A stretch of DNA of 43,249 bases from NCBI RefSeq assembly GCF_002198735.1, contig NZ_MWLO01000128.1, positions 135,200-178,448 of the forward strand. The letters are read 5' to 3'. Under the pieces are notes generated by a model that was not told the DNA's origin, made no database searches, and saw only the letters and a program-made list of their open reading frames with translations. The position numbers were made by a program, and so were the translations under genes. The stretch comes from Ideonella sp. A 288. Its GTDB lineage: Bacteria > Pseudomonadota > Gammaproteobacteria > Burkholderiales > Burkholderiaceae_C. Shown here in pieces: positions 8,735 to 42,854 of this stretch (positions are counted from its first letter, which is position 1; each line of letters starts with the position of its first letter).

Positions 8735-9258
8735 ACAAGAAGCTGCTGTGGCCGCTGGGCATCTTCCTGGTGCTGGTGGCCTTCCTGGGGGTTGGTCTGA
8801 ACCTCAATCCTCGAGAAGTGCCGTCGCCGCTGGTGGGCAAGCCGGCGCCCGGGTTCAGCACGGCGTCGTTGGTGGCCCCCGAGCGCGTGCTGCGCAAGGA
8901 GGACATGCTGGGCAAGGTGTGGCTGCTCAACGTCTGGGCCTCATGGTGCGGCGCCTGCCGAGAAGAGCATCCGGTGCTGGTGGCCTACGCCCGGTCGGGG
9001 GGCGTGCCCATCTACGGGCTGAACTACAAGGACCAGCGCAAGGACGCCCTGGGCTGGCTGAAGGACTTCGGCAACCCTTATGTCGATTCGCTGTTCGACC
9101 TGGACGGCCGCATCGGCATCGACTACGGCGTCTACGGCGTGCCCGAGACCTTCGTCATCGATCGTGCCGGGGTCATCCGCTACAAGCACATCGGCCCGGT
9201 CACGCCGCAGGTGCTGCGCGACAAGATCGAACCGCTGCTGAGGCAACTCAATGGCTAG
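8731..9258 (+). CDS. ccmG: Thiol:disulfide oxidoreductase CcmG/DsbE
   Basis: This membrane-anchored periplasmic thioredoxin-like protein reduces the CXXCH cysteines of apocytochromes. One N-terminal membrane helix (LLWPLGIFLVLVAFLGVGL) precedes a thioredoxin fold with the active site WCGAC and the cis-proline loop GVPETFVID. At 175 residues it has the family length. It starts at GTG 8731, overlapping the ccmF stop, and its 3' end overlaps ccmH by 8 nt. The Gly-Ala pair between the active cysteines differs from E. coli CcmG (PTC) but is compatible with function. Confidence 0.96.
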   Translation: MNKKLLWPLGIFLVLVAFLGVGLNLNPREVPSPLVGKPAPGFSTASLVAPERVLRKEDMLGKVWLLNVWASWCGACREEHPVLVAYARSGGVPIYGLNYKDQRKDALGWLKDFGNPYVDSLFDLDGRIGIDYGVYGVPETFVIDRAGVIRYKHIGPVTPQVLRDKIEPLLRQLNG

Positions 9259-9775
9259 GCGACTCGATCTGTGGGCGGCATTGCTGGCCGCCGGCTTGGC
9301 CCTGGCTTCTGCCTTTGCCAGTCCTCTGGCACACGCTGCCGATGCGCCGGCCACTGCTGCTGCAACCCCTCGCGAGGCCGCTGCCGTCGCGGCCAACCCG
9401 GCGCTCGAGGCCCAGGTGATGGCGCTTTCCGCCGAGTTGCGCTGCCTCGTCTGCCAGAACCAGACCATTGCCGATTCGCATGCCGAGTTGGCGGTCGATC
9501 TTCGCCGCCAGATCCGCGAGATGCTCACCAAAGGGCAGGGCGAACGCGAGATCCTCGACTACATGACCCAGCGCTACGGCGACTTCGTGCTGTACCGCCC
9601 CCCCTTCAAGCCCACGACCGTCCTCCTCTGGCTCGGCCCGGCGTTGCTCCTGGTCGTCGCGCTCGGCTCGCTGGTCGTCGTCCTGCGGCGCCGCGACCGC
9701 CTGGCCGACGATGCCTTCGAACCCGACACTGACTCCGACGAACGAGAGACCGCCCCCGATGTCAAGAACCGATGA
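9251..9775 (+). CDS. ccmH: Cytochrome c maturation protein CcmH (CcmL-type)
   Basis: This thiol oxidoreductase holds the apocytochrome for CcmF. The 174-residue protein has a signal peptide (cleavage near AHAADA), the diagnostic LRCLVCQNQTIADS motif with the redox-active Cys pair, and a C-terminal membrane anchor near residues 119-140 followed by a short charged tail. It is the short form, without the TPR domain; the TPR part is the separate downstream gene ccmI. The start overlaps the end of ccmG by 8 nt. Confidence 0.95.
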   Translation: MARRLDLWAALLAAGLALASAFASPLAHAADAPATAAATPREAAAVAANPALEAQVMALSAELRCLVCQNQTIADSHAELAVDLRRQIREMLTKGQGEREILDYMTQRYGDFVLYRPPFKPTTVLLWLGPALLLVVALGSLVVVLRRRDRLADDAFEPDTDSDERETAPDVKNR

Positions 9776-10991
9776 CCTGAAGCGCCAGATCGCGCAGATC
9801 GACGAACTGATCCAGGGCGGAATGCTGACCGGCGACGCCGCCAAGCAGGCGCGCGCGCGCCTCGAAGAAGAACTGCTGGGTGCGGTGCTGCAATCGGCCT
9901 CGCCGTCACCGCCCACACCGACGCCCGCGCCGGCACCCGAGCCATCATTTTCCGGTGAACGTCCGTCGGCCAAGACCTGGTTGGGAATCGCCGGCTTCGT
10001 GGTGGCCGTTGGCGTGGCCGGCTACGCCTGGCTGGGCAATCGTGAAGGCCTCGCGGTGGCGCCCGGCGCCACCGCACCGGCGGCCGCGGCCAGCGGGGCC
10101 GCCCATGCGATGGGCGTCACCCAGATCGAGGGCCTGATCGAGAAACTGGCCGAGCGCCTGAAGAATGCCCCCGAGGACGCCGAAGGATGGTCGATGCTGG
10201 GCCGCTCCTATTCCGTGCTGGGCCGCCATGCCGAAGCAGTGCCGGCCTACAAGCGCGTGATCGAGTTGCGTCCGACCGATGGGCAGGCCCACGCCGATCT
10301 CGCCGATGCGCTGGCATCGGCCACCGGCAAGAGCCTGGATGGCGAGCCCGAGCAACTCATTGCGAAGGCGTTGACGCTCGAACCGGACAACCCCAAGGCG
10401 CTCTCGCTGTCGGGCACCATCGCCTTCAACCGCGGCGATGCTGCAGGCGCCGCCAGGCAGTGGGAACGCGCCCTGAAGAACCTCGAGCCCGGCTCCGACA
10501 TGGCGCGCCAGATGCAGGGGGCGCTGGACGAGGCCCGCCTGCGTGCCGGCCTGCCGGCGCAGTCGCCCGCGGCAGCGGTGGCCGCGACCGGCCAGGACGC
10601 CGCGGCGCCCGCATCCACCCAGGGTGCTGCTCCGGCAGCCGCCTCTGGCGCCACGGTGCAGGGCCGCGTGACGCTGGCGGCGTCCTTGGCCGGCAAGGCG
10701 TCGCCGGACGACACGGTGTTCGTGTTCGCCCGCCCCGTGGCCGGCGCGCGCGCGCCGTTGGCCATCCTGCGCAAGCAGGTCAAGGACCTGCCGATCGAGT
10801 TCACTCTCGACGACAGCCTGGCCATGAGTCCGTCCATGCGCATCTCCACCGTCACCGAAGTGGTGGTCGGGGCACGCATCAGCAAGAGCGGCAATGCAAT
10901 GCCCCAACCCGGCGACCTGCAGGGCCTCACCCCCATCGTCAAGGTGGGTGCCAAGGGTGTGGCCGTCGAGATCGCCGAGACCATCAAGTAG
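9759..10991 (+). CDS. ccmI: TPR apocytochrome chaperone CcmI (CycH-like)
   Basis: The 410-residue protein presents apocytochrome c to the CcmF/H lyase. It begins with a short coiled segment, then a Pro/Ala/Thr linker and a membrane helix near residues 72-90 (WLGIAGFVVAVGVAGYAWLG). TPR repeats follow (WSMLGRSYSVLGRHAEAV; AHADLADALASATG), then an Ala/Pro-rich linker and the C-terminal beta-rich CycH domain (GRVTLAASL... DTVFVFARPVAG). The ATG at 9759 overlaps the ccmH end by 17 nt and gives the standard MSRTDDLKRQI N-terminus; an earlier start at 9711 is less likely. Confidence 0.93.
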   Translation: MSRTDDLKRQIAQIDELIQGGMLTGDAAKQARARLEEELLGAVLQSASPSPPTPTPAPAPEPSFSGERPSAKTWLGIAGFVVAVGVAGYAWLGNREGLAVAPGATAPAAAASGAAHAMGVTQIEGLIEKLAERLKNAPEDAEGWSMLGRSYSVLGRHAEAVPAYKRVIELRPTDGQAHADLADALASATGKSLDGEPEQLIAKALTLEPDNPKALSLSGTIAFNRGDAAGAARQWERALKNLEPGSDMARQMQGALDEARLRAGLPAQSPAAAVAATGQDAAAPASTQGAAPAAASGATVQGRVTLAASLAGKASPDDTVFVFARPVAGARAPLAILRKQVKDLPIEFTLDDSLAMSPSMRISTVTEVVVGARISKSGNAMPQPGDLQGLTPIVKVGAKGVAVEIAETIK

Positions 10992-18029: not shown

Positions 18030-18124
18030 CGATCGGTGGGGGTGCACGGTGCGCCGAACTTGTGGCGCACGCTGCTTTGGGCATGAGACGGATGCCCACA
18101 CGTCCCGATGAGGAGAATGACTCG

Positions 18125-18703
18125 ATGATCCGTGGTTCGCGGCACTTTCTGTCCGCCGCCGCACTGTGCCTCGGCATGGCGGGCAGTGCAGCCCACGCGC
18201 ACTCCTTGTCCATCGATCCCGTCGCCCAGATGGTCGGCCTCGGCAGCGAGGCCACCGTCGAGGTGCGCGTCAGCGACGTGTTGCCCGACCGCCTTGGTGC
18301 CTACGATTTCGAGCTCAGCTTCGACGGCAACATCCTGGCGTTCGACCGGGCCATCGACGGCTTCGGGCTGGGACTGGCGTTCGGGCTGGGCACCACGCCG
18401 GGCGCCGCCAGTGTCCATGTGTCGGATTTTTCGTTCGAGGCCATCGACGACCTGATCGTCTTGCAGGGCGGTGATTTCGTCCTGTTCTCCCTGGTCTTCG
18501 ACACGCTGGCCCTGGGCACCAGTGCCCTGAGCTTCGATCAGGTGGTGCTGCGCAGTGGCGCCGGTGCACCGGTGGCTCCTGATGCCCTGAACGCGGGCAG
18601 CATCACGGTGGAAGCGCGCGTGCTGCCCGAGCCGGCCACCTTGGGTCTGGTCTTCGGCGCCCTGGTCGTCAGCCTGTTGCCCGGTCTGCGCCGTCGCCAC
18701 TGA
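18125..18703 (+). CDS. PEP-CTERM protein with cohesin-like domain
   Basis: The 192-residue exported protein has a signal peptide ending near AHAHS. The body resembles a cohesin-type beta-sandwich: an N-terminal strand with GSEATVEVRVSDV, then LGAYDFELSFDGNILAFD and a later DLIVLQGGDFVLFSLVFDTL. It ends with the PEP-CTERM tag LPEPAT, a hydrophobic helix and RRRH. An AGGAG (18110-18114) ahead of the ATG at 18125 supports this start over an upstream in-frame ATG at 18083. It is probably a surface or matrix protein processed by an exosortase encoded elsewhere. Confidence 0.88.
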   Translation: MIRGSRHFLSAAALCLGMAGSAAHAHSLSIDPVAQMVGLGSEATVEVRVSDVLPDRLGAYDFELSFDGNILAFDRAIDGFGLGLAFGLGTTPGAASVHVSDFSFEAIDDLIVLQGGDFVLFSLVFDTLALGTSALSFDQVVLRSGAGAPVAPDALNAGSITVEARVLPEPATLGLVFGALVVSLLPGLRRRH

Positions 18704-21466: not shown

Positions 21467-22446
21467 CATGCCACCCCACCCGCCGCCATGCCCTGGCCGC
21501 GCTCGCCGCGATGTCCGCGATGTCCGCGCTGGTCGCCGCGCCCGCCCGGGCCGCCGAGCCGTTTCCTGCGCGGCCGATCACGCTGGTGATGCCGTTCCCG
21601 GCCGGGGGCAGCTTCGACCCGGTCTTCCGGGCGCTCAGCGAGGCCGCCTCGCGTGAGCTGGGGCAACCCGTCGTGATGATGCACAAGCCGGGCGCCGGCG
21701 GCATCACCGGCCCGGCCAGCGTGGCGATGATGGCCGAGGCCGATGGCTACACCGTGGCGGTGATGCACAACAGCGTGATCCGCGCGCCGCTGACGCAGAA
21801 GATCACCTGGGACCCGCTGCGCGACTTCACCTACCTGGGCGGCCTGTTCGGCCTGACCACGGCCATCGCGGTGGCGGCCGATGCCCCCTGGAAGACGCTG
21901 GCCGACCTGCTGGCCGACGCCAGGAAGCGCCCCGGCGAGATCAGCTACGGTAACGTCGGCGCGACCAGCGCGAACCGCATCTATGGCGAGCGTCTGGCGC
22001 GGGCCAACGGCACGCGATTCAACATGATCCCGTTCAAGGGCGGCGGCGAGGCCTGGACCACGCTGATCGGCCGGCAGCTCGACGTCTACGGCGACCCCGG
22101 CTTCGGCCCCCAGGCCAAGGGCGGCAAGGTGCGGCTGCTGGCCAGCTTCACCGACCGGCGGCTGCAGCGCTTCCCCGACGTGCCGACGGTGAAGGAGCTG
22201 GGCCACGAGCTCGTCATCGAGTCGCCGGTGGGCCTGGTCGCGCCGAAGAACCTCGACCCGAAGATCGCCGCGCGGCTGGGCGCCGCCTTCGCCAAGGCAG
22301 CCACCGACCCGGCCTACCTGGCGCAGCTCGAGCAGTTCGACATGCAGCCGGCGGTGAGCAGCGGCGAGGCCTATGCGGCCTACGCCCGCGCGCAGTTCGA
22401 GCGCGAGCAGAAGATGCTGGCCGAGATCGGCTTCAAGCTGGAATGA
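21463..22446 (+). CDS. Tripartite tricarboxylate transporter substrate-binding protein (TctC/Bug family)
   Basis: A 327-residue periplasmic binding protein. It has a signal peptide with twin Arg (TRRHALAALAAMSAMSALVA, cleavage after ARA near residue 30). The family start AEPFPARPITLVMPFPAGGSFDPVFRAL follows, then the carboxylate-binding loop KPGAGGITGPASVAMM and DVPTVKELGHELVIESPVGLVAPK. Bug proteins bind organic acids; the ligand is unknown. AAGGAG precedes the ATG, and the stop overlaps the next start (ATGA). No TctA/TctB membrane subunits are in the window, as is common for orphan Bug genes. Confidence 0.93.
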   Translation: MTCHPTRRHALAALAAMSAMSALVAAPARAAEPFPARPITLVMPFPAGGSFDPVFRALSEAASRELGQPVVMMHKPGAGGITGPASVAMMAEADGYTVAVMHNSVIRAPLTQKITWDPLRDFTYLGGLFGLTTAIAVAADAPWKTLADLLADARKRPGEISYGNVGATSANRIYGERLARANGTRFNMIPFKGGGEAWTTLIGRQLDVYGDPGFGPQAKGGKVRLLASFTDRRLQRFPDVPTVKELGHELVIESPVGLVAPKNLDPKIAARLGAAFAKAATDPAYLAQLEQFDMQPAVSSGEAYAAYARAQFEREQKMLAEIGFKLE

Positions 22447-23267
22447 GCACCATGGACCTGCGCACCGACCAGTTCCGCGGCCGCCACGTCTTCGTCGCCG
22501 GCGGCTCCAGCGGCATCAACCTCGGCATCGCGAAGGCCTTTGCCCGCGCGGGGGCCAGGCTCTTCATCATCAGCCGCTCGGCCGACAAGGTGGCCGCCGC
22601 GGTGGCGCAGCTGCAGGCCCTGGGCGCCGAGGCGCAGGGCCAGTCGGCCGACGTGCGCCAGCCCGAGGCCTTGTCGGCGGCCTACACGCAGGCGGTGGCG
22701 CGCTTCGGACCCATCGACGTGCTGGTGTCCGGCGCGGCCGGCAACTTCCTGGCCAGCGCGCTGGACATGTCGCCCAATGCCTTCAAGACGGTGGTCGACA
22801 TCGACCTGCTGGGCAGCTTCAACGTCGTGCGGCTGGCCCATGCGCACCTGCGACAGCCGGGGGCCTGCGTGATCCAGATATCGGCCAGCCAGGCCTTCAC
22901 GCCGACGCCGTTCCAGGCCCATGTGTGCGCCGCCAAGGCCGGCGTGGACATGCTGACGCAGGTGCTGGCACTCGAATGGGGCGGCCAGGGCATCCGCATC
23001 AACTCCATCGTGCCAGGCCCGATCGCCGACACCGAGGGCCTGCGCCGCCTGGCGCCCGGCGAGGCCGCACTGGCGGCGATGGCCGAGCGCGTGCCCTTGA
23101 AGCGCCTGGGCCGCCTCGAGGACATCGCCCGCATGGCGATGCTGCTGGCCAGCGACTGGGGCAGCTACATCACCGGCGCGGTGATCCCGGTGGACGGCGG
23201 CCTGTCGCTCACCGGCCCGCGCGACTTCTCGGCCGCGGCCGGCGCCGCGCAGCGGGGCAGGGGATGA
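22443..23267 (+). CDS. Short-chain dehydrogenase/reductase of the 2,4-dienoyl-CoA reductase type
   Basis: The 274-residue Rossmann-fold enzyme has the cofactor loop VAGGSSGINLGIAKAF (residues about 18-33). It has features of eukaryotic-type DECR enzymes rather than FabG: SGAAGNFLASALDMSPNAFK, VDIDLLGSFNVVR, AHVCAAKAGVDMLTQVLALEWG, PGPIADTEGLRRL and the tail SYITGAVIPVDGG. The usual YxxxK Tyr is Val161 (V161-CAA-K165), as in DECRs, which also lack that Tyr. It would reduce an enoyl- or dienoyl-CoA with NAD(P)H. It overlaps both neighbours by 4 nt. Confidence 0.85.
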   Translation: MSTMDLRTDQFRGRHVFVAGGSSGINLGIAKAFARAGARLFIISRSADKVAAAVAQLQALGAEAQGQSADVRQPEALSAAYTQAVARFGPIDVLVSGAAGNFLASALDMSPNAFKTVVDIDLLGSFNVVRLAHAHLRQPGACVIQISASQAFTPTPFQAHVCAAKAGVDMLTQVLALEWGGQGIRINSIVPGPIADTEGLRRLAPGEAALAAMAERVPLKRLGRLEDIARMAMLLASDWGSYITGAVIPVDGGLSLTGPRDFSAAAGAAQRGRG

Positions 23268-23784: not shown

Positions 23785-24432
23785 TCAGGCCCGTCGGCGC
23801 AGGGCCCCGCCGATCAACGCCAGTCCACCGAGCATCAGCGCCCATTGGCCGGGTTCGGGCACCGGAGCCGCCACGCCCAGCGTCAGATTGTTGACGGTGG
23901 TGAAGGTGTTGGCCAAGCCCGCCGGTGCGGCCAGGGCCTGCAACGTGAACAGCGGGCCGTCGGAGACGAAGCCGATGAAGCTGCCGGCGTGACTGCTCGC
24001 CAGCGTGTGGGTCACGCTGCCGTCGACATCGGTGGCCGAGAACGACACCGACACGCCAGGCACCACGACGCCGTTGAAATCGGTGGCGAAGAACAGCCCA
24101 CCGACGGCCTGCACGCCACCGGTGAAGTCGTAGAAGGTGATCGACTCCTGGGGCGTGTTGGTCGACAGGTAGACGTCCGCGCCGTTGGCGACGAAGAACA
24201 TGCCGTCGAAATCGGCATCGGCCGAGTAGCCGAACGGGCCGGCGGTGCCCACGTACGGGAAGATGGGTCCGTCGGAGAACTCGGCGTCGAAGGTGTCGGT
24301 GGCCGCCGCGGCGATGGCGCTCAGGAAGCTGGCCTGAGACGTGTGCACGGTGATGGTGGCCTGGGCGCCCGTGGCCGAGGCCAACAGGGTGGCCAGAGCG
24401 ACACGGAACAGGGCGGTGGGGAGCGACGGCAT
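23785..24432 (-). CDS. PEP-CTERM sorting-signal protein
   Basis: The 215-residue exported protein has a signal peptide (cleavage after GAQA near residue 25). The body begins ITVHTSQASFLSAI and is rich in Asp/Phe/Gly with FYDFTGGVQAVGGLFF and VSFSATDVDG, a beta-sandwich pattern common among PEP-CTERM surface proteins. It ends with VPEPGQWALMLGGLALIGG followed by RRR. The start is the ATG at 24432. A TATAAC (minus strand, 24498-24493) could be its -10. It is unrelated in sequence to the other two PEP-CTERM genes outside the tag and lies antisense to the surrounding catabolic genes. Confidence 0.88.
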   Translation of the reverse strand: MPSLPTALFRVALATLLASATGAQATITVHTSQASFLSAIAAAATDTFDAEFSDGPIFPYVGTAGPFGYSADADFDGMFFVANGADVYLSTNTPQESITFYDFTGGVQAVGGLFFATDFNGVVVPGVSVSFSATDVDGSVTHTLASSHAGSFIGFVSDGPLFTLQALAAPAGLANTFTTVNNLTLGVAAPVPEPGQWALMLGGLALIGGALRRRA

Positions 24433-24584: not shown

Positions 24585-25469
24585 TCAGGGCCGGGTGCCC
24601 TGCGCCAGGATCGAGGCCAGTTCGGGCACGAGCGCCCCGGGCTCGCCATGCTCCAGCGCGCCCTGTAGCGTCGACAGCACGGCCGCCGCGATCGTCCGTT
24701 CGGCGCCGGCGTCGGCGGCCATCGCGTGGTAGTAGCCCAGGTCCTTGCACGCATTGGCGATCGAGAAGCGCAGGCCCGACGGGTCGTGCGACAGCAGGTA
24801 GGGCTTGATGCGCTCCAGCGCGGTGCCGCCGCCGCCGCCCTTGGACAGCACGTCGACGAACACCTCGGGCGCGACGCCATTGCGCTGTGCCGACGCAGCG
24901 GCCTCGGCCAGCAGCGTCACCATGCCCAGCGACACGTAGTTGTGCAGCAGTTTCATGCCGTGGCCGGCACCCACCGGCCCGGCGTGGGTGATGTTCTCGG
25001 CGAAGCACTGCAGCAGCGGGCGGCATTCGTCGAGCAGTGCCGCGTCGCCACCCACCAGCAGGTTCAGGCGGCCTTCGGCGGCCTCCTTCGGGGTGCGGGT
25101 CATCGGCGTGTCGAGGAAGCGGCTGCCCGCGGCCTGGACCGCCTGGGCCATGCGCAGCGTGGACGACGGGATGGCCGTCGAGCAGTCGATCACCACGCTG
25201 CCGGGCCGCAGGCCTTCGAGCACGCCGCCGGGGCCGGTGAGCACGGCCTCGACCTGGGGCGAACCGGTCAGCACCAGGATGACGATGTCGCTTCGTGCGG
25301 CCAGTTCGGCGGCGCTGTGCAGGCTCACCGCGCCCGCGGCCTTCAGCGCATCGAGCGGCTGGTTGCCGGGGTGTTCCAGCACCGCGAGGGCGTGGCCATG
25401 CTTGACCAGGTTGCTGGCGATGCCGTGGCCCATCAGGCCGATGCCGACCATGCCGACGTTCTTCTTCAT
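24585..25469 (-). CDS. NAD(P)-dependent beta-hydroxyacid dehydrogenase (3-hydroxyisobutyrate dehydrogenase family)
   Basis: A 294-residue two-domain enzyme. The N-terminal Rossmann motif is GMVGIGLMGHGIASNLVK. The substrate loop DTPMTRTPKEAAEGRL (residues 120-134) carries Arg125-Thr126 in place of the usual Ser-Gly-Gly, and the catalytic Lys173 lies in GHGMKLLHNYVS. The Arg in the loop and Ser180 match positions used for sulfonate recognition in E. coli sulfolactaldehyde reductase YihU, though YihU's Asn is His176 here. The substrate is therefore probably a small anionic 3-hydroxy acid or aldehyde, but is undetermined. GGAG precedes the ATG. It is divergent from the GntR gene. Confidence 0.88.
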   Translation of the reverse strand: MKKNVGMVGIGLMGHGIASNLVKHGHALAVLEHPGNQPLDALKAAGAVSLHSAAELAARSDIVILVLTGSPQVEAVLTGPGGVLEGLRPGSVVIDCSTAIPSSTLRMAQAVQAAGSRFLDTPMTRTPKEAAEGRLNLLVGGDAALLDECRPLLQCFAENITHAGPVGAGHGMKLLHNYVSLGMVTLLAEAAASAQRNGVAPEVFVDVLSKGGGGGTALERIKPYLLSHDPSGLRFSIANACKDLGYYHAMAADAGAERTIAAAVLSTLQGALEHGEPGALVPELASILAQGTRP

Positions 25470-25619: not shown

Positions 25620-26429
25620 ATGGCCCTCACCGCCGAGCCGACCCTTGCCGACCGCATCGCCGCCGAGCTTGCGCAGCGCGTGCGCGCCGGGGCCTACCCG
25701 GTGGCGTCGCGGCTGCCCACCGAGGTCGCGCTGGCCGCGCACTACGGCGTCAGCCGCACCGTCATCCGCGAGGTCATCGCGCGTCTGAAATCGCAGGGCC
25801 TGGTCGACAGCCGGCAGGGCAGCGGCACCGTCGTGCTCGATGCGCGCTCGTCCGACGCCTTCAGGGTGCTGGCGGCCACGCGCGACGACCCGGCGCTGGG
25901 CGTGCTGCGCATCCTCGAACTGCGCCGCGGCGTCGAGGCCGAGATGGCCGCCCTGGCCGCGCAGCGGCGCAGCGCGGCCGACGTGAAGGCCATCGCCCGG
26001 GCCTTGCAGGCCATCGACGACGCCGTCCAGCGCGGCGGCGATGGCGTCGCCGAAGACCTGGCCTTCCACCTGGCCATCGCCAGCGCCAGCCGCAACCCGC
26101 TGTACTCCGACCTGCTGGGCCTGCTGACCCGCGCGCTGCATGACGCCATCCACGTCACGCGCCGCAACGAGGCGCGCCGCGCCGACCTGGCCGCGCAGGT
26201 GCGGGCCGAGCATCAGGCCTTGTGCGAGGCCATCCGCGTGCGCGACCCGGTGGCCGCGCGTGTGGCAGCGTATGGCCATCTGCTCAACACCGCCGCGCGC
26301 CTGCGCAAGGCCGGCCGCGCCTTCTGGGCCGGCAGCCCGCGCGAGGCCGCCGACCGCGTGGCCGCCACGCGCTTGCGCGGCGTGGCGCGTCCGACGTACG
26401 ACCAGTACACCAAGAGACGGGCAGGGTAA
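25620..26429 (+). CDS. GntR-family regulator, FadR/FCD subfamily
   Basis: The 269-residue regulator has a winged-helix domain (residues about 10-75: YPVASRLPTEVALAAHYGVS; RTVIREVIARLKSQGLVDSR; QGSGTVV). The C-terminal FCD effector domain contains LRILELRRGVEAEMAALAA, FHLAIASASRNPLYSDLL and a late EHQALCEAIRVRD with the metal-binding His pattern. FCD proteins usually sense organic acids such as lactate, pyruvate or hydroxyacids. It is divergent from the hydroxyacid dehydrogenase and lies 53 nt ahead of the dehalogenase-like SDR, so it probably controls both. Confidence 0.93.
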   Translation: MALTAEPTLADRIAAELAQRVRAGAYPVASRLPTEVALAAHYGVSRTVIREVIARLKSQGLVDSRQGSGTVVLDARSSDAFRVLAATRDDPALGVLRILELRRGVEAEMAALAAQRRSAADVKAIARALQAIDDAVQRGGDGVAEDLAFHLAIASASRNPLYSDLLGLLTRALHDAIHVTRRNEARRADLAAQVRAEHQALCEAIRVRDPVAARVAAYGHLLNTAARLRKAGRAFWAGSPREAADRVAATRLRGVARPTYDQYTKRRAG

Positions 26430-26482: not shown

Positions 26483-27169
26483 ATGACCTCCACCAGACTC
26501 GATGGCAAGCGGGTGTTGCTCACCCAGTCGAAGGACTTCATGGGGCCGGCGCTGTCCGAGGTGTTTCGACGCCTGGGCGCGACGGTGATCGAGGACGAGC
26601 GGCGGCTGGCCGACGACGCGACGCTGCCCGGCGCCATCGTCCAGGCCGCGGGCCACATCGACGTGCTGCTGGTGCACCTGGCGTTGCCGGCCCCCAGCAC
26701 CCCGGCGGCCGACATCGACGACGCCGAGTGGCGCGAGGTGTTCGCCCACCTGGTCGATCCGATGCCGCGCCTGGTGGCCGCGGTGCTGCCGCAGATGACC
26801 GAACGCCGGCAGGGCCGCATCCTGGTGATGGGCAGCGCCGCAGCGCTGCGCGGCCAGAAGCGCACCGGCAGCTACAGCGCGGCGCGGGGTGCGCAGCTGG
26901 CCTACGTGCAATCGGTGGGGCTGGAACTGGCACCGCAGGGCGTGCAGCTCAACGCCATCGCGCAGAACTTCGTCGACAACCCCACCTACTACGGGCCCGA
27001 GGTGCAGGCCAACCCGCGCTTCCAGGAGCGCCTGAAGCGCGACGTGCCCCTGGGCCGCCTGGTCAGCGCCGAAGAGGACGCGCTGTTTGCCGCCTATCTG
27101 TGCAGCGACGCCGCCGCCTGCTTCGTCGGCCAGGTGTTCCCGGTCAGCGGCGGCTGGGCCAGTCGCTGA
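26483..27169 (+). CDS. Halohydrin dehalogenase-like SDR
   Basis: The 228-residue SDR-fold protein lacks the glycine-rich NAD(P) loop. It shows both published signatures of halohydrin dehalogenases: T-X4-F/Y-X-G as T14-QSKD-F19-M-G21, and the catalytic S-X12-Y-X3-R as Ser118, Tyr131, Arg135 (Arg replaces the Lys of SDRs). The loop after strand six reads QNFVDNPTYYGPE and the end GQVFPVSGGWASR. These enzymes convert vicinal haloalcohols to epoxides and halide, and open epoxides with azide, cyanide or nitrite; they are cofactor-free. The ATG at 26483 was chosen because upstream frame belongs to gntR. A degenerate, merely NAD-independent SDR relative cannot be excluded. Confidence 0.8.
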   Translation: MTSTRLDGKRVLLTQSKDFMGPALSEVFRRLGATVIEDERRLADDATLPGAIVQAAGHIDVLLVHLALPAPSTPAADIDDAEWREVFAHLVDPMPRLVAAVLPQMTERRQGRILVMGSAAALRGQKRTGSYSAARGAQLAYVQSVGLELAPQGVQLNAIAQNFVDNPTYYGPEVQANPRFQERLKRDVPLGRLVSAEEDALFAAYLCSDAAACFVGQVFPVSGGWASR

Positions 27170-27740
27170 CCGAATCGGTGGGCGACGGGCCGACGCCCGG
27201 GTCCTGCGGGCAGCGGGTGCGCAGGGCATCGCCGATGCGCGTCAACTCGGCGTCGCCGATCAACCGGCCGGCCATCGGCAGCAGTTCGGCATCTTCGCGT
27301 GCGACGTGCCGCTGGCACCGGTCGACAAAGGCCTGAAGTTCGTCAGCGGCCGGCCCCGGCGCGCGGCCCGCCGCCAGGCCATCCAGCGTCGGACGCAGCA
27401 GGCGCCACCGGCGCTCGAGGTCGCGGTGCTCTTCGGTGAGCGACGCCACCATCTCGCGCAGGCACACCGCGTCGGACCCCGCCATCGCGTCGATCAGCGC
27501 CGGGAACAGTTCGACTTCCTCGTCGGCGTGGTGGGGTTGCAGCGCGGTGTCGCGGCAGCACACCGCGCCGTGGACAGCGTCGCATGCCGGCCGGTCCGGC
27601 CGATACCCGTCCTGCGGGTCGATCAGGCGCTGCAGGACGGCGCACTGGGTCAGCAGGTGACGATGGCAGGCGGCCAGCGTCGCCAGCGGCGACTCGTCGT
27701 CGCCGACGGCCGGGGCGTCGACGGGCTGTCCTGGGGTCAT
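27144..27740 (-). CDS. Hemerythrin-like (HHE) protein
   Basis: A 198-residue helical protein with the hemerythrin HHE cation-binding pattern. It has an early His (ACHRHLLTQCAVLQ), then PHHADEEVELFPALI, LTEEHRDLERRW, and CQRHVAREDAELLPMAGRLI, giving the His/Glu ligands of a di-iron site in a four-helix bundle. Such proteins bind oxygen or nitric oxide or sense iron. The 3' end overlaps the dehalogenase-like gene by 26 nt, tail to tail. The ATG at 27740 is the only reasonable start. Confidence 0.85.
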   Translation of the reverse strand: MTPGQPVDAPAVGDDESPLATLAACHRHLLTQCAVLQRLIDPQDGYRPDRPACDAVHGAVCCRDTALQPHHADEEVELFPALIDAMAGSDAVCLREMVASLTEEHRDLERRWRLLRPTLDGLAAGRAPGPAADELQAFVDRCQRHVAREDAELLPMAGRLIGDAELTRIGDALRTRCPQDPGVGPSPTDSVSDWPSRR

Positions 27741-29587: not shown

Positions 29588-30316
29588 TCACGCCCGGCCC
29601 GGCGGCCCGACCGCCAGCCCGCTCGCCAGCGCGCTGGCCAGGCCGTGGTTGACGTCGCGGTGCTGCGACTCGTCGGCGCGCACCACCCGCACCACATCGG
29701 CCAGGGTGGCCTCGTCGGCCAGGTGCCAGTACTGCCGGGCGATGGCCGGGGCCCGCGGGTTCGGCGTGCGGCCGTCCTCGATCTCGGCCAGGTAGAGCGT
29801 GTAGCTCAGCACGGCCTCCTCCTCGAAGTAGCCGACCAGCCGGTGCGCCGTGCGCCGCGACACCAGGTAGAGCAGGAAGTAGCCGATGTAGAAGGCGCCC
29901 TGGGCCAGCAGCACCACAAGGCGCTCGAAGGCGGTCGGCCGGGCGATCGCGACGAAGGTCATCAGGTGCATGCGCTCGTTCTCGGCCTCGTCCATCAGGG
30001 TGCGGATCCAGCCGCCGTCGTCCTCCATGCGGCGCAGGCAGCCCAGGTGGGTGAGCGTGGCGCCCACCATGCCCGGCACGGCGGCCACGGTCTCCAGCAC
30101 CACCGCGCGGTGGCCGTAGCGCTTTGCGAAGAACAGGTCGGCGCCGAAGCGCAGGAGCTTGGTGATGGCCAGCGCGACGCGGTCGGACAGGTCCAGCGGC
30201 CGGTGGTGCACGGCGAGGCCGACCGCGGTGTCCGCAGGCGTGTCTGCCGCGGGCCGTCCGCCGGGCGGGTCGCCCTCGGGCGAGGGTCGGTCCGGTCGAC
30301 CCGGGGATGCGGTCAC
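29588..30316 (-). CDS. aox: Alternative oxidase (cyanide-insensitive ubiquinol oxidase)
   Basis: A 242-residue di-iron carboxylate oxidase, like the mitochondrial AOX. Iron ligands are visible as LETVA (Glu75), ENERMHL (Glu114, His117), YFEEEAV (Glu165 or Glu166) and [11 protein letters not shown] (Glu216, His219). Two interfacial hydrophobic helices are present ([30 protein letters not shown]). It would oxidise ubiquinol with O2 without pumping protons. The GTG at 30316 overlaps the stop of the PQQ-type dehydrogenase gene (GTGA); no in-frame ATG upstream is credible. Translational coupling to the dehydrogenase is unusual and suggestive. Confidence 0.93.
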
Positions 30317-31626
30317 GGCGAGGCGGTGACGCGCCAGACCATATTGCCCACGTCGTCGGCGACGAGCAGGGCGCCGCGGCGGTCGATCGCCACGCCGACC
30401 GGTCGCCCGAAGGCATGGCCCTGTTCGTCCAGGAAGCCGGTCAGCACGTCCAGCGGCATGGCGCCGGACGGCCGCGCGCCGTCGAAGGGCACGAAGACGA
30501 CGCGGTAGCCGCTGGCGGGCCGGCGGTTCCACGAGCCGTGCTGGCCGATGAACATGCCATGGGCGAACTGCGGCGGCAGCGTGGTGCCGGCCGAGGCGGC
30601 CAGCCCCAGCGACGCGGTGTGCGGGCCCAGCGCATAGTCGGGCACCAGCGCCGTGGCCACCAGGTCGGGGCGGGGCGGCTCGACGCGGATGTCGACGTGG
30701 CTGCCGAAGTAGCTGTACGGCCAGCCGTAGAAGCCGCCGTCGCGCACCGAGGTCAGGTAGTCGGGCACGAGGTCGCTGCCGATCTCGTCGCGCTCGTTGA
30801 CCACGGTCCACAGCGCGCCGCCCGGCGCCCAGGCCAGGCCGTTCGGGTTGCGCAGGCCGCTGGCGAACAGCCGCTGCTGGCCGCTGGCGATGTCCAGTTC
30901 CCAGATCGCCGCGCGGCCGGCCTCGGCCGGCATGCCGCGCTCGGCCACGTTGCTGTTGGAGCCCACGGTGACGAAGAGCTTGCGGCCGTCGGCGCTGGCG
31001 ATCAGGTTCTTCGTCCAGTGGTGGTTGATGGTGCCGCCGGGCAGCCTCGCCACCACGACGCCGGGTTCGGTGATCCGGGTCTGCCCCGCGACGTAGGGAA
31101 ATCGCAGCACGGCATCGGTGTCGGCCACGAACAGGTTGTTGCCCACCAGGGCCATGCCGAAGGGCGAGTTGAGCCCTTCGAGCAGCACGCTGCGCAGGTC
31201 GGCCACGCCGGTGCCCTGGCTGTCGCGCAGCAACGTGATGCGGTTGGCGCTGGGCACGGCCGCGCCGGCGCGCTTCATCACCAGGCCCATGATCGCGCCC
31301 TTCAGGCCCTTGCCGCTTTCGGGCCGGGCGGGGGCATTCGTCTCGGCCACCAGCACGTCGCCGTTGGGCAGCACCAGCAGCCATCGCGGGTGCGACAGGC
31401 CCTTGGCGAAGGCCGCCACGCGGGTGCCGGCGGCCGCTTGTGGCGTGACGTCCTCCGGCCAGCCGCGGGCCGGGGCGATGTTGACGGTGGGGATCAGCGT
31501 CGGGTGCGGTGGCACCCAGCGGGGCTGCCGGCCCGTGCCGTCCGCCACGGTCAGCCGGGCGGTGTCGCCGCAGGCGGCCAGGGCCGCGCAGGCCGCGGCG
31601 ATCGACAGGGCAGTGGCAAGGTTCAA
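30313..31626 (-). CDS. PQQ-type sugar (L-sorbosone) dehydrogenase-like lipoprotein
   Basis: The 437-residue six-bladed beta-propeller is of the soluble glucose/sorbosone dehydrogenase family. A lipoprotein signal is present ([20 protein letters not shown], lipobox Cys19). Blade motifs are [78 protein letters not shown] and [23 protein letters not shown]. Such enzymes oxidise aldoses or aldehydes with PQQ in the periplasm. The substrate is unknown. The downstream alternative oxidase overlaps it by 4 nt; a paralogue lies 77 nt upstream. Confidence 0.9.
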
Positions 31627-31703: not shown

Positions 31704-33008
31704 TCAGCCGCCGGCCACCCGCCAGACCACGTCACCCACGTCGTCGGCGACCAGCAGCGATCGGTGGTCCGGCCCGATGGCCACGCCCACCGGGCGGCCG
31801 TAGGACACCGATTCGTCGGGCGCCAGGAAGCCCCACAGCAGGTCGCGCGCCGCCCCGGCGGGCCGGCCATCGGCGAAGGGCACGAACACCACCCGGTAGC
31901 CGCTGAGCCTGCTGCGGTTCCACGAGCCGTGCTGGCCGATGACCATGCCGTCGACGTCGAAGCCCGGCAGCGTGCCGGCCGGCATCCAGCACAGGCCCAG
32001 CGAGGCGGTGTGCCCGCCCAGCGCGTAGTCGGGGGTCAGCGCGCGGGCCACCAGGGCGGCGTCCTGCGGCACGCGGTCGTCCACCGTCCGGCCCCAGTAG
32101 CAGTGCGGCCAGCCGTAGAAGCCTCCATCCATCACCGAGGTCAGGTAGTCGGGCGGCGTCTCGTCGCCCAGGCCGTCGCGTTCGTTCACGACCGTCCACA
32201 GCCGGCCGGTGACCGGCTCCCAGGCCATCCCCACCGGGTTGCGCAGGCCGGACGCGAAGACGCGGCAGTGGTTCGTCGCCACGTCCACCTCGTAGACACA
32301 GGCGCGGCCTTCCTCGGCCTTCAGTCCGTGGTCGCCGATGTTGCTGAGCGAGCCGACGCCCACGTACAGCCGGCGGCCGTCCGTGCTGGGCAGCAGGCTG
32401 CGCGTCCAGTGGCCGCCCGGCTTGAAGCTGGCCAGGCGGCGGCCGGGCGCATCGATGCGGGTGGTGCCCGCGGTGTACGGGAAGGCCACCAGTCCGTCGG
32501 TGTTGCCGACATAGAAGGTGTCGCCCAGCAGCGCCATGCCGAAAGGCTGGTTCAGGTGCTCGAGCAGCGCGTGGCGCTGTTCGGCCACGCCGTCGCCATC
32601 GGCATCCCGCAGCAGCGTGATGCGGTTGGGGCTGTCGCCGACCGCGGCGGCGCGGCGCATCGTGGCCACCATCGCGTGGTCGAACAGCGACCGCGGCTGG
32701 CCACCCGACTGCAACGCCTCGGCCACCGTCACGTCGCCGTTGGGCAGCACCAGGATCCAGCGCGGGTGCTTCAGCCCTGCGGCGAAGGCGTTGACCTTCA
32801 GGCCCGACGCCGCCTGTGGCAACTGGCCGGCCGACCAGCCCTGGGCGCTGGGCATCTTCAGCGTCGGCAGGCGGCCCTGCGGCTGCGCGGCGGGGATCTG
32901 CGGGGCGGCACCCACCGCCGGGGCGCCCGGGTTGCCTTGCCGCCGCCACAGGATGGCGCCGGCCCCCACCATGGCCACCGCGCGCGCCAGGACATCGTGA
33001 AAGGCCAT
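31704..33008 (-). CDS. PQQ-type sugar (L-sorbosone) dehydrogenase-like protein, paralogue
   Basis: The 434-residue beta-propeller is clearly paralogous to its downstream neighbour. Shared motifs are [92 protein letters not shown] and [21 protein letters not shown]. The N-terminus has a hydrophobic stretch ([16 protein letters not shown]) that looks like a membrane anchor or uncleaved signal, not a lipobox. The ATG at 33008 was chosen since upstream sequence is non-conserved. It is probably the first gene of the three-gene unit ending in the alternative oxidase. Confidence 0.9.
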
Positions 33009-38097: not shown

Positions 38098-40989
38098 TCA
38101 GTGCAGCAGCTTCAGGCCAGGCGGCAGCGCGTCGCCGAACAGGCTGCGCTCGGCCGCCTCGTCCAGCGCCACGACCTCGCGGACACGGTCGATCCAGGCC
38201 GCCGGCACGCCGTGCGACTGCAGCCGGCCGACCACCCGTTCGCTCACTTCGGGCGGCAGGTCGCGCGCCCGGTCGCCGCTGCGGCGGGCCAGGTTGGCCG
38301 CCGCGGCCGCGGCGCCGTCGGCCTGCTTCCAGTCCAGCGCCAGCAGCACGTCCAGCCAGGCCTGCGCCGTCTCGATCGGCACCACGCCGTGCGCGCTGCC
38401 GTACAGCGGCACGCGGGCGCCCAGGCGGCCCAGCGCCCACAGTGTCCAGGGGTCGCGCACCGGCCGCGGGCCGGTGCCGGCGGCGGCCGGGCGCAGGCGC
38501 TGCAGCAGCCAGTCGCCGATCTCCACCTTGTGCTCGGCCGGCACGCGTTCCAGCGACGCGCCCAGGCGCAGCATCTCGTCCCAGCCGCCCTTCACCAGGC
38601 GCGCGGGGCGCTCGCCCAGGCCGGCCTCGGCCCCGCGCAGGTTGAACGCGAAGTCTTCCAGCAGGCGCGACTGCGCCGCCTCGTCCAGCCCGCCGGCGAC
38701 GCGCCGCCACAGCGTCCACCACTCGCTGTTCACCTGCGCCTCGTGGCCATGTTGAACCCCCTGCTCGAACAGCGGCCACAGCTGCTCGATGCGCCAGCCG
38801 TCCAGGGCGTCGCCGAAGCCGGGCCGCAGACACCAGCCGGCCAGGCTGAGCCAGAGCCGCTCGTGGTCGGCCGAGCGGCGGCGGCCCCGGTGGCGCTGCC
38901 ACAGCGCGTCGAACAGCGGGCGCAGCAGAGCGGTCGGCCAGCGCTCGCGGTGGCCCAGCAGGGCTTCGAGCTGAGGGCGCAACTGCTTGACGGCCTTGGG
39001 GTCGGCGTCGCGCAGGCGGGCGCCGAACACGCGCTCGATGCAGGCCACGGCCTCGTCGAAGCGCGGTGGCAAGCCCGCCGTGGCGGCGGCTCCCGCGGTC
39101 GGCTCGCCGCGCAACTGGAACTCGAGCTGCCAGCGCTGCGCCGGGTCGTCGGCGGCCAGGCAGTGCACTTCCAGCGTGCCCACCTCGGTCAGCATGGCCG
39201 CCAGTTGCACCGGGATCTCGCGGCGGCCCTCGCCAGGTACGTCAGCGCGCACGTCAGCGCGCACCACGGTGGCCAGCGGCGGCAGCGCCTGCGCGTCGCG
39301 GTCGGCCAGGTCGACCAGGTCGCCCGCCGCGGGCGTGGCGTGTCCGGCGCCATCGGCGGTGGTGGCCGCCAGGTGGAAGCGCACCGGCTCGCCGACCCGC
39401 AGTGCGAAGCGGCGGCCCTCCAGCCGCAGTTCGTGGCCGGCCTCGCTGCCCTGCGGCAGCAGGCACACGCCGGGCTTGGCGAGGCCACCGGCGCCGTCGT
39501 CCAGTTGCAGGAAGTAGCTGCGCGGCGAGCCGCCGGTGATGCGCGGCGCCAGGCCCCGGCGGGCCAGCGCATGGGCCACGGCACCACGCGCCACCGCCAC
39601 ATCCGGGTCGTCGTTGTGCAGCAGGCGCAGCGGCCGGCCGCTCCAGCCCGACAGCGTGGCCTGCAGGCGCGTGGCGATGGCGTGGGCGCGGAACACGCCG
39701 CCGTTCAGCAGCACGGCATCGGGCCAGCCGGCGCCTGCGTGCTGTGCCAGGAAGGCGCTGACATGACGGGTTACCGCAGCGTCTGCGGCGTAGGGCAGGC
39801 CGAAGCTGACCAGCCCGCTGGCGCGCTCGCGTCGCGGGCCCTCGTCGGCCGCGCCCTGGGGGAAGAAGCCGTCGACGATCAGCGCGTGCACCTCGTCGCG
39901 GGTGAACTCCACCGAGCGCGCGCCGCCGACCAGCCGCGAGCCGCCGCCCAGCAGGGTGACGCTGGCGCTGGCCGGTGCGTCGGCGGCGAGCAGGCGTTCC
40001 TTGACGGCGCGGCAGCGTTCCACCAGCTGCGCCAGCTGGCCGGCGCCCAGCCTCGGCTGGGCTTGGCCTGGCCGCGCCTCGGCCTGACCCAGGCGGGTCT
40101 CCGCCAGGTGGGCCAGCGCCAGGTCCATGTTGTCGCCGCCCAGCATCAGATGCCGGCCGACGGCGATGCGCTCGAGCCGCGGCTCGTCGTCCTGCAGGTC
40201 GACGCGCACCAGGCTCAGGTCGGTGGTGCCGCCGCCGACGTCGCACACCAGCACCAGCCGCGTGTCGGCCAGGTCCTCGCGCAGCGTCTTGCGGTGGCGG
40301 AACAGCCAGTCGGTCAGCGCTGCCTGCGGTTCCTCCAGCAGGCGCAGCGTGGGCAGCCCGGCGTCGCGGGCGGCCTGCAGCGTCAGCGTGCGGGCCGCGT
40401 CGTCGAACGAGGCCGGCACCGTCAGCACCAGCTCCTGCTGCTCCAGCGGCTGGGCCGGGTGGTGGTGGTTCCAGGCCGCGCGCACGTGCGCCAGGGTGCT
40501 GGCGCTGGCGGCCACCGGCGACACCTTGGGCACGTCGGCCGGCGCGCCCCAGGGCAGGATGTCGGCCAGGCGGTCGACCGCGGCATGCGACAGCCAGCTC
40601 TTGGCGCTGGTCACCAGCCGCCCCGGCACCTGCGCGCCGAGCTGGCGGGCCAGCATGCCGATCACGGCGCCGTCGTCCGTGGTGGCCGGCGGCCAGGGCA
40701 GGGTGGTGTCGCCGGCGGCCAGTTCGCCGGCCGCGGGGTGGTAGCGCACCGAGGGCAGCAGCGGCCGCGCCGCCACCTCGCCCGCGGCGACGAGCTGGTC
40801 GATGTCGAACAGGCGGATCGACTGGCGCGAGGCGCCGGCCTTCACCGGCGCGAAGGCCACCACCGTGTGCGTGGTGCCCAGGTCGATGCCGACGCTGAAG
40901 GCCGGCCCCTGGGCGGCCGACCCCTTGGCGACGGGTCCCTTGGCGACGGGTCCCTTGGCGGCCGGCCCGTGGCGGCGCGCGTTGCTCAC
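38098..40989 (-). CDS. Hsp70-like chaperone with C-terminal DUF3731 region
   Basis: The 963-residue protein has an N-terminal Hsp70 ATPase domain after a short repeat-rich leader: phosphate-1 loop GIDLGTTHTVVAFAP, TVPASFDDAARTLTLQAAR, EEPQAAL, phosphate-2 loop VCDVGGGTTDLSLV, and LLNGGVFRAHAIA. The C-terminal half (from about residue 600) is not the DnaK lid but the helical DUF3731-type extension rich in Trp/Leu (SEWWTLWRRVAGGLDEAAQ). The GTG at 40989 overlaps the upstream Hsp70 stop (GTGA) with GGAGG just before it. Clients and partners are unknown; no J protein lies nearby. Confidence 0.9.
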   Translation of the reverse strand: MSNARRHGPAAKGPVAKGPVAKGSAAQGPAFSVGIDLGTTHTVVAFAPVKAGASRQSIRLFDIDQLVAAGEVAARPLLPSVRYHPAAGELAAGDTTLPWPPATTDDGAVIGMLARQLGAQVPGRLVTSAKSWLSHAAVDRLADILPWGAPADVPKVSPVAASASTLAHVRAAWNHHHPAQPLEQQELVLTVPASFDDAARTLTLQAARDAGLPTLRLLEEPQAALTDWLFRHRKTLREDLADTRLVLVCDVGGGTTDLSLVRVDLQDDEPRLERIAVGRHLMLGGDNMDLALAHLAETRLGQAEARPGQAQPRLGAGQLAQLVERCRAVKERLLAADAPASASVTLLGGGSRLVGGARSVEFTRDEVHALIVDGFFPQGAADEGPRRERASGLVSFGLPYAADAAVTRHVSAFLAQHAGAGWPDAVLLNGGVFRAHAIATRLQATLSGWSGRPLRLLHNDDPDVAVARGAVAHALARRGLAPRITGGSPRSYFLQLDDGAGGLAKPGVCLLPQGSEAGHELRLEGRRFALRVGEPVRFHLAATTADGAGHATPAAGDLVDLADRDAQALPPLATVVRADVRADVPGEGRREIPVQLAAMLTEVGTLEVHCLAADDPAQRWQLEFQLRGEPTAGAAATAGLPPRFDEAVACIERVFGARLRDADPKAVKQLRPQLEALLGHRERWPTALLRPLFDALWQRHRGRRRSADHERLWLSLAGWCLRPGFGDALDGWRIEQLWPLFEQGVQHGHEAQVNSEWWTLWRRVAGGLDEAAQSRLLEDFAFNLRGAEAGLGERPARLVKGGWDEMLRLGASLERVPAEHKVEIGDWLLQRLRPAAAGTGPRPVRDPWTLWALGRLGARVPLYGSAHGVVPIETAQAWLDVLLALDWKQADGAAAAAANLARRSGDRARDLPPEVSERVVGRLQSHGVPAAWIDRVREVVALDEAAERSLFGDALPPGLKLLH
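40922..40966. repeat. 15-bp tandem repeat in the Hsp70 leader
   Basis: Two perfect copies of CCCTTGGCGACGGGT (40922-40936, 40937-40951) and a third diverged copy (40952-40966) encode AKGPVAKGPVAKG near the N-terminus of the larger Hsp70. Copy-number change would not shift the frame. Confidence 0.8.
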
Positions 40990-42854
40990 CCGGCCTCCAC
41001 AGACTCCTGCCGTGTGCCGCGCACGTCGTACTCGACCTTCCAGCGCTCGCCACCGGACAGCGCCATGGCCTCGATCTCCAGCGTGCCGGCCTCGGTGACG
41101 CGGGCGTGCAGGCGCACCGGCACCACGTCGCCGGCGCGGCGGCCCTCGGGGGGCAAGGTGGCCGAGATGGCGTCCAGCTCCTGCAGCTCGTCGCCGCCCC
41201 ACAGGTCGAGCAGGGTGCCGACGACGTCCTGCCGGCGCACCGACGAGGCGAAGAAGCGGAAGCTCACCGGCTCGCCCACCACCAGGCCCAGCACCAGTTC
41301 GGGCACGGCCGCGTCGGTGCCTTCTTCCATGCCGAAGGGCGCCACGCACAGTGCCTGCACCGGCGGCTCGACACCCGGCACCGCGGGCATCGTCGACTCG
41401 ACGGCGATGTAGTAGCCGAAGGCCGTGCCGCCACGGATGCGCACGCCCTGTCCGCGGCGCACGTGGCCGTAGTAGGCGGCGCCGCGGGCCACCGCCAGGT
41501 CGAGGTCGGCACCGGCCAGCAGCCGCGCCGCATCGGCCCCGTCGGCCGCGAGCCAGGCGTTCAGCGTGGCCAGCGTGCGCTCGGCCAGCGCGGGCGACTT
41601 GAAGACGCCGCCGTTCAGCAGCACCGCGGTCGGGTGGATGAAGCTGGCGCCTGGCGCCACGCGGTCGGCGAAGCCTTCCAGCTCGGCGACCGCGCCCAGC
41701 TGTCGGCCCAGGAAGGCCGCCAGGTGGCGCGTCACCGCGGCGTCCTGCGCATAGGGCAGGCCCAGCTGCGCCAGGCCGGCGCGCACGCGGGTCTGCGGGC
41801 GGGCTGCGGCGTCCACCGCCGGGAAGAAGCCGTCCAGCAGCGTGGCCGACACCTCGCCGCGCGTCAGCTCGGTGCGGATCGAGCCCTTGATGAGCTTGCT
41901 GCCGCGGCTGGGCACGACGATGGGCTCGGCATCGCGGCCTTCGCCGCCGGCGCCCAGCAGGCGCTCCTTGGCGTGGCGGCAGCCGTGCGTCAGCGCGCGC
42001 ATCTGCCAGGCGTCCAGCGTGGTGCCGGCGGTGGCGAGCTTGCGCGCCACCACATGGGCCAGTGCCAGGTCCATGTTGTCGCCGCCCAGCAGGATGTGGT
42101 CGCCGACGGCGACGCGGTGCAGCTCGAGGTTGCCCTTGCGCTCGAGCACGGCGATGAGCGAGAAGTCGGCGGTGCCGCCGCCGACGTCGACCACCAGCAG
42201 GATGTCGCCCGGCCGCACCTGCTTGCGCCAGGCGCCGCCGCTGCCCTGGATCCAGCTGTACAGCGCGGCCTGCGGTTCTTCCAGCAGCGTCAGGTGGCCG
42301 CAGCCGGCGGCGCGGGCGGCCTCCACCGTCAGCTCGCGCGCGGCGGGGTCGAACGAGGCGGGGATGGTCACCGTCAGGTCCTGCTCGGCGAAGGGCGCGT
42401 CGGGGTGCGCGTGGTCCCACGCGCGGCGCAGGTGATCGAGGTAGCGCACCGACACCTCCAGCGGCGACACCCGGGCCACCTCGGCCGGCGCGTCGTGCGG
42501 CAGGATGGCGGCACGGCGGTCGACGCCCGGGTGGCACAGCCAGCTCTTGGCGCTGGACACCAGTCGGATCGGCGTGGTCGCGCCGCGGCTGCGCGCCATC
42601 TCGCCGACCACGTCGCGGCCCTCGGCCGACCAGGGCAGGGCCAGTTCGCCGGGTGCCAGTTCGTCGGTATGCGGCAGGTACAGGAAGGACGGCAGCAGCG
42701 GCGGCGCCTCCACCGTGCCGGGCGCGGTGAGCTGCGGCACCGCCATCACCTCGCCGACGAGGGCGTCGCCGTCGCTGGCGGCAAGGTCGACGAAGGCCAG
42801 CGCGCTGTGCGTGGTGCCGAGGTCGATGCCGATGGCGTAGCGGACTTCGTTCAA
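40986..42854 (-). CDS. Hsp70-family protein (YegD-like group)
   Basis: The 622-residue Hsp70 homologue starts MNEVRYAIGIDLGTTHSALAFVD. Phosphate-2 loop VDVGGGTADFSLIAVLERKG, EEPQAALYSWIQGS, and the adenosine region LLNGGVFKSPALAERTL are all present. The C-terminal part is a substrate-binding-like beta region (VVPVRLHARVTEAGTLEIEA) without the helical lid, as in DnaK relatives of the DUF2760 neighbourhood. The start is TTG at 42854, overlapping the DUF2760 stop (TTGA); no ATG gives the conserved N-terminus. It is translationally coupled to the larger Hsp70. Confidence 0.92.
   Translation of the reverse strand: MNEVRYAIGIDLGTTHSALAFVDLAASDGDALVGEVMAVPQLTAPGTVEAPPLLPSFLYLPHTDELAPGELALPWSAEGRDVVGEMARSRGATTPIRLVSSAKSWLCHPGVDRRAAILPHDAPAEVARVSPLEVSVRYLDHLRRAWDHAHPDAPFAEQDLTVTIPASFDPAARELTVEAARAAGCGHLTLLEEPQAALYSWIQGSGGAWRKQVRPGDILLVVDVGGGTADFSLIAVLERKGNLELHRVAVGDHILLGGDNMDLALAHVVARKLATAGTTLDAWQMRALTHGCRHAKERLLGAGGEGRDAEPIVVPSRGSKLIKGSIRTELTRGEVSATLLDGFFPAVDAAARPQTRVRAGLAQLGLPYAQDAAVTRHLAAFLGRQLGAVAELEGFADRVAPGASFIHPTAVLLNGGVFKSPALAERTLATLNAWLAADGADAARLLAGADLDLAVARGAAYYGHVRRGQGVRIRGGTAFGYYIAVESTMPAVPGVEPPVQALCVAPFGMEEGTDAAVPELVLGLVVGEPVSFRFFASSVRRQDVVGTLLDLWGGDELQELDAISATLPPEGRRAGDVVPVRLHARVTEAGTLEIEAMALSGGERWKVEYDVRGTRQESVEAG

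Follow-up and report, generated by a model that had tools for sequence, protein, structure and literature searches.

A subtype D halohydrin dehalogenase gene in Ideonella and the changing neighbourhoods of its relatives

Can the genes around a halohydrin dehalogenase (HHDH) tell us what such an enzyme does in nature? The question is raised by a gene in a 43,249-nucleotide stretch of DNA from Ideonella sp. A 288 (the window, here always the whole stretch), which the initial annotation read as an HHDH gene in a catabolic-looking island. The coordinates, 228-residue length and both motif positions that it gave were exact, and the neighbours that it named (FCD regulator, dehydrogenase, DECR-like SDR, thioesterase and Bug protein) are all present. 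The gene and its nearest neighbours are:

26483..27169, plus strand: putative HheD-type halohydrin dehalogenase gene, 228 aa, with T14-X4-F19-X-G21 and S118-X12-Y131-X3-R135
25620..26429, plus strand: FCD-domain GntR-type regulator (Pfam FCD and GntR), ending 53 bp before the dehalogenase gene
24585..25469, minus strand: hydroxyisobutyrate-type dehydrogenase, divergent from the regulator (context gene)
27144..27740, minus strand: hemerythrin-domain protein, overlapping the dehalogenase 3′ end by 26 bp (context gene)

Upstream, the genes for a Bug/TctC protein, a PRK07576-type SDR and a hotdog thioesterase form a run with 4-bp overlaps. It is very probable that the window gene encodes a D-subtype HHDH, an SDR-fold lyase that works without a cofactor, and that this is most likely a chromosomal stand-alone haloalcohol/epoxide enzyme, with the FCD-regulated genes as neighbours by chance. 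The stand-alone role and chance neighbourhood are the most likely reading, but a weaker one than the family placement.

We examined the protein for the residues that set HHDHs apart. It satisfies both motif 1 (T-X4-F/Y-X-G; T14, F19 and G21) and motif 2 (S-X12-Y-X3-R; S118, Y131 and R135), and a sequence check found neither the T-G/A-X3-G/A-X-G cofactor loop, whose glycine-rich form the initial annotation had rightly called missing, nor S-X12-Y-X3-K. All six motif residues are invariant in 42/42 aligned sequences, made up of the window protein plus 41 of the best 80 loci, hand-picked for diversity (alignment A1). Given this invariance, the motif residues exceed chance. Across the called proteins of the best 80 of 417 loci plus the window, the motif 1 pattern was found in 78/81 and the motif 2 pattern in 81/81. 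Since genes were called with a codon-usage caller that set some starts too late, the three proteins without motif 1 (L007, L012 and L013) are explained by misplaced starts; the start of the window ORF agrees with homologues that begin alike in the alignment. One of the 81 (L073) also fits a loose glycine-rich pattern, yet near residue ~47, outside the loop. Seven SDR paralogues, taken from 26 weaker matches in the same genome, all lacked both HHDH motifs and all carried the loose cofactor-loop and Tyr-Lys patterns. The patterns alone are imperfect: HheC fits the loose Tyr-Lys one as well, and the other SDR in the window fits none. Comparison of the window gene with eight relatives gave dN/dS values of 0.07-0.29; thus, the gene is kept by purifying selection.

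Searching the PDB sequences placed the protein closest to 7b73 (E 1.1e-100), which we take to be HheD2, followed by 8xxb (1.9e-86) and HheB (1.1e-48). Further down, other dehalogenases were mixed with SDR-labelled chains, and then came FabG and more SDRs; 5o30 and 6i9u, presumably HheG-type chains, ranked under several FabG enzymes. Since HheG-type chains fall below FabG, sequence rank alone does not part HHDHs from SDRs, and the case for an HHDH here rests on the close match to HheD2. Identity of the window protein is 68% with HheD2, 44% with HheB, 31% with HheA2, 27% with HheC and 23% with the other SDR in the window. The assumption that 7b73 is HheD2 is supported by the protein of strain HTCC2207 (L023), which is identical to 7b73 across its 225 residues.

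A 35-row tree divided 24 D-type proteins, together with HheA2, HheB and HheC, from eight SDRs (the seven paralogues of the same genome plus the other SDR in the window) by a branch with support of 98/96. We looked in this tree for clustering with cofactor-binding SDRs, and the window protein falls with the HHDHs instead. Long branches make the inner order uncertain. Support for the D group is no higher than 69/72, and HheB lies beside the D rows in an unsure order. The assignment to subtype D comes from identity and the tree, with HheD2 nearest (68%) and HheB next (44%), and with HheD2 and 8xxb as the only D references. Motifs, identity to HheD2 and tree position together bear out the proposed HHDH identity as far as sequence can, and the gene almost certainly encodes an enzyme of a known, already crystallised subtype. 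For the window gene, then, its sequence, motifs, family placement and purifying selection are established.

The likenesses to characterized enzymes fall off in steps. With HheD2, a crystallised halohydrin dehalogenase of a gammaproteobacterium (PMC5892878) that also appears in the reference list of PMC11536340, the window protein shares 68% identity over the whole chain, both motifs and a similar length; the neighbours differ, as the locus in the marine gammaproteobacterium HTCC2207 and its kin have an acetyltransferase-like gene before HheD. The D-type-like chain 8xxb, labelled SDR only, matches over residues 5-228 and has both motifs, but is more distant than HheD2 (292.6 vs 339 bits). HheB (PDB 4zd6) also carries both motifs, but belongs to a separate subtype. 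HheC of Agrobacterium radiobacter AD1 (PDB 1pwx) shares the Ser-Tyr-Arg residues and motif 1, but has a C-terminal extension as a feature of its own (PMC4989007). In addition, the HheC gene shares its operon with an epoxide hydrolase gene (PMC11976700), while none was seen beside the window's dehalogenase gene. Judged by sequence, the window protein adds a new member to subtype D, which is already described, with D enzymes counted up to HheD38 in a 2016 review (PMC4989007). Biocatalysis makes use of this enzyme family, to which it contributes a further HheD sequence.

Fold, mechanism and activity are predicted from the family. In our alignment, HheC F12 corresponds to F19 here, and the HheC N-Y-L segment (176-178) to N162-F163-V164. 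HHDH chemistry, as described in PMC4989007, has Ser holding the substrate, Tyr deprotonating it and Arg lowering the Tyr pKa, with a nucleophile pocket in the position of the cofactor site. By analogy, Ser118 would bind a vicinal haloalcohol and Tyr131, its pKa lowered by Arg135, would accept the proton; the alkoxide would then displace the halide to form an epoxide. The halide would exit to a pocket whose lining is formed by the T14-F19-G21 loop, probably together with the N162-F163-V164 segment. F12 of HheC contacts the halide directly, a contact that is missing in HheB (PMC11976700). In the reverse reaction, the epoxide would be opened by halide, azide, cyanide or nitrite. Most likely the enzyme serves to convert or detoxify small haloalcohols or epoxides.

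We determined how widely such genes occur. Scanning a single genome for each species yielded 417 stretches encoding a relative at E ≤ 1e-3, not necessarily all D-type, and the best 80 of these, 65-89% identical to the window protein, were kept. With the window's own genome counted in each case, matches were present in 4/398 genomes of a phylum-wide draw (E ≤ 1e-60), all four in the window's family, in 33/250 genomes of the family (E ≤ 1e-60) and in 17/21 genomes of the genus (E ≤ 1e-50); the 17 include one 115-residue fragment and one genome with two copies. The subtype is therefore patchy overall and usual in the genus, so that the description of these enzymes as rare stands for the phylum and fails within the genus, with the family figure on record above. 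Copies from the genus are not monophyletic, and the clade that includes the window's protein also draws members from Rubrivivax, other Ideonella, Limnohabitans and a Herminiimonas MAG; this mixed membership suggests exchange between lineages. One genus genome (G007) carries two D-type genes (L102 and L103) with 64% identity to that of the window, and around one of the two lie genes that by eye resemble acyl-CoA degradation genes. There was no support for a catalogued catabolic plasmid as the source, the sole match in 72,556 plasmid records being only 43.6% identical.

Gene orders in the different lineages were read from 81 loci (the best 80 of 417 plus the window), with genes named by eye. HheD lies behind an acetyltransferase-like gene in 16 SAR92-type loci, behind a glyoxalase-like gene in eight (four Limnohabitans and kin) and beside a pyruvate-phosphate dikinase-like gene in three Dechloromonas/Azonexus loci; genus and family loci show many other neighbours. 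Since constant neighbours occur only within single lineages, the question becomes the natural substrate rather than the window's island, and the survey matters slightly more than the enzyme itself. Counting related loci apart, a same-strand gene ends ≤100 bp upstream of HheD in 54/79 loci, and HheD looks monocistronic in 16/77. HheD may thus often be part of a shared transcript, in the window too, which counts against the stand-alone part of our reading. Its partners in such transcripts would differ among lineages. According to the 2016 review, just two of the HHDH genes then known shared an operon with an epoxide hydrolase, and other physiological functions are not excluded there (PMC4989007). 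A crude pattern detected no alpha/beta hydrolase within three genes of hheD in the 81 loci, and the epoxide hydrolase N-domain PF06441 was absent from the window's own genome. At a further locus (L134), a gene that by eye is alpha/beta hydrolase-like lies directly upstream of HheD.

One neighbourhood points to a physiological role. In five of the 81 loci (L003, L008, L010, L014 and L026), HheD follows a glycerol kinase gene on the same strand, directly downstream in L003, L010 and L014 and separated from it by a single gene in L008 and L026. These loci come from the genomes of L090-L094, five of 16 genus loci fetched, and each has a glpD and/or GlpR-like gene ≤3 genes away. In a sixth genome (L015, the same as L095), the glycerol kinase gene is ~5.6 kb upstream on the same strand. 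The identities of GlpK and GlpD in L003 are backed by curated cut-offs, the regulator there scoring below its own (284.6 vs 331 bits). The gene between glpK and hheD in L008 (L091; region 8932-9987) is TIR-domain-like by eye.

An epichlorohydrin-to-glycerol route is known. From these neighbourhoods, the D-type enzymes of this Burkholderiales clade could have served glycerol metabolism, turning C3 halohydrins (e.g., 3-chloro-1,2-propanediol) into glycidol and then glycerol for the kinase, with the window's copy relocated from an ancestral glycerol operon. C3 halohydrin chemistry is consistent with a glycerol kinase neighbour, and the adjacency is found in both subclades of the window's clade. 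However, only three of the five genes are directly adjacent, and the intervening gene in L026 is on the opposite strand. The window genome's own glp operon contains no HHDH gene, and glycerol kinase was within three genes of HheD in 0/29 family loci outside the genus. On a 29-row D-type tree, the adjacency required four changes, and 85-87/500 shuffles gave as few; thus, it is no more clustered than chance, and a single ancestral event, one gain followed by several losses, may account for all cases. No epoxide hydrolase was found beside the gene. We regard this reading as unlikely. If true, it would give HheD enzymes a physiological role, a point left undecided in PMC4989007 (2016), and the glycerol kinase neighbourhood in five genomes offers one directly testable answer on the natural substrate. 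We term the link unreported solely because we found no open-access paper with both terms, halohydrin dehalogenase and glycerol kinase.

Another alternative is that the dehalogenase acts in a local, FCD-controlled acid-degradation island, making or opening an epoxide or halohydroxy intermediate, with the hydroxyisobutyrate-type dehydrogenase, the DECR-like SDR and the thioesterase carrying out other steps. The dehalogenase gene shares its strand with the regulator and follows 53 bp behind, and a scan with little power on DNA of this kind found no promoter-like or terminator-like site between the two genes, which may be on a shared transcript. Moreover, in three of the 81 loci (L061, L070 and L077), HheD lies on the same strand between genes that by eye are like an acyl-CoA carboxylase subunit and HMG-CoA-lyase-type, which shows that HheD genes can sit in acid-degradation surroundings. 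Conservation argues the other way. We searched 132 loci with gene calls, 126 of which have an HheD gene (at least 8 of them second copies of genomes already counted). The regulator, dehydrogenase, hemerythrin, ferredoxin and OsmC genes occur ≤3 genes from HheD in 1/126 loci, the window only, and the nearest HheD relative (L001, 89%) has different neighbours. The Bug protein (26-31%) and the SDR (30-32%) have weak relatives near some other HheD genes, a scatter expected because both families are large.

The regulator itself has matches in 39/250 family genomes (E ≤ 1e-50, own counted), and besides itself only two exceed 53% identity, in G023 (68%) and G195 (61%). Both of these lie within ~3.5 kb of an opposite-strand relative of the dehydrogenase (69-70%), from which one or two genes separate them. 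No HHDH gene is among the five genes on either side of these regulator relatives, and neither genome is among the 33/250 family genomes with an HHDH match. As the pairing of regulator and dehydrogenase exists elsewhere without an HHDH, the regulator seems to belong with the dehydrogenase and the HHDH gene to be the later neighbour. The suggestion that the island could reveal the natural role of the enzyme thus finds no backing in these comparisons, and a part for the dehalogenase in the island is very unlikely. That the protein is an ordinary or degenerate SDR with the motifs present by chance is extremely improbable: Pfam and NCBIfam see only an SDR (adh_short_C2, with no NCBIfam model over its cut-off), but the 68% identity to HheD2, the missing cofactor loop and Tyr-Lys, the tree position and the purifying selection all count against it. 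We return to a D-subtype HHDH, most likely acting on its own, as the preferred reading.

Several other genes of the window deserve mention. The DECR-like SDR (22443-23267, plus strand) scores above the PRK07576 cut-off, yet lacks the usual loop pattern and Tyr-X3-Lys, with Val at the catalytic Tyr position in the alignment. Two small predicted proteins (18092-18703, plus strand, and 23785-24432, minus strand) have, by eye, a C-terminal PEP-CTERM-like sorting signal; the second had no Pfam match at E ≤ 1e-6. An alternative oxidase gene lies at 29588-30211 on the minus strand (Pfam AOX, E 9e-79), and upstream of it on the same strand are two genes with glucose/sorbosone-dehydrogenase-type domains (30313-31626 and 31704-33008). 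Finally, 38098-42854 (minus strand) contains two adjacent Hsp70-related genes, one at 38098-40989 with HSP70 and DUF3731 DnaK-related domains and a second identified by eye.
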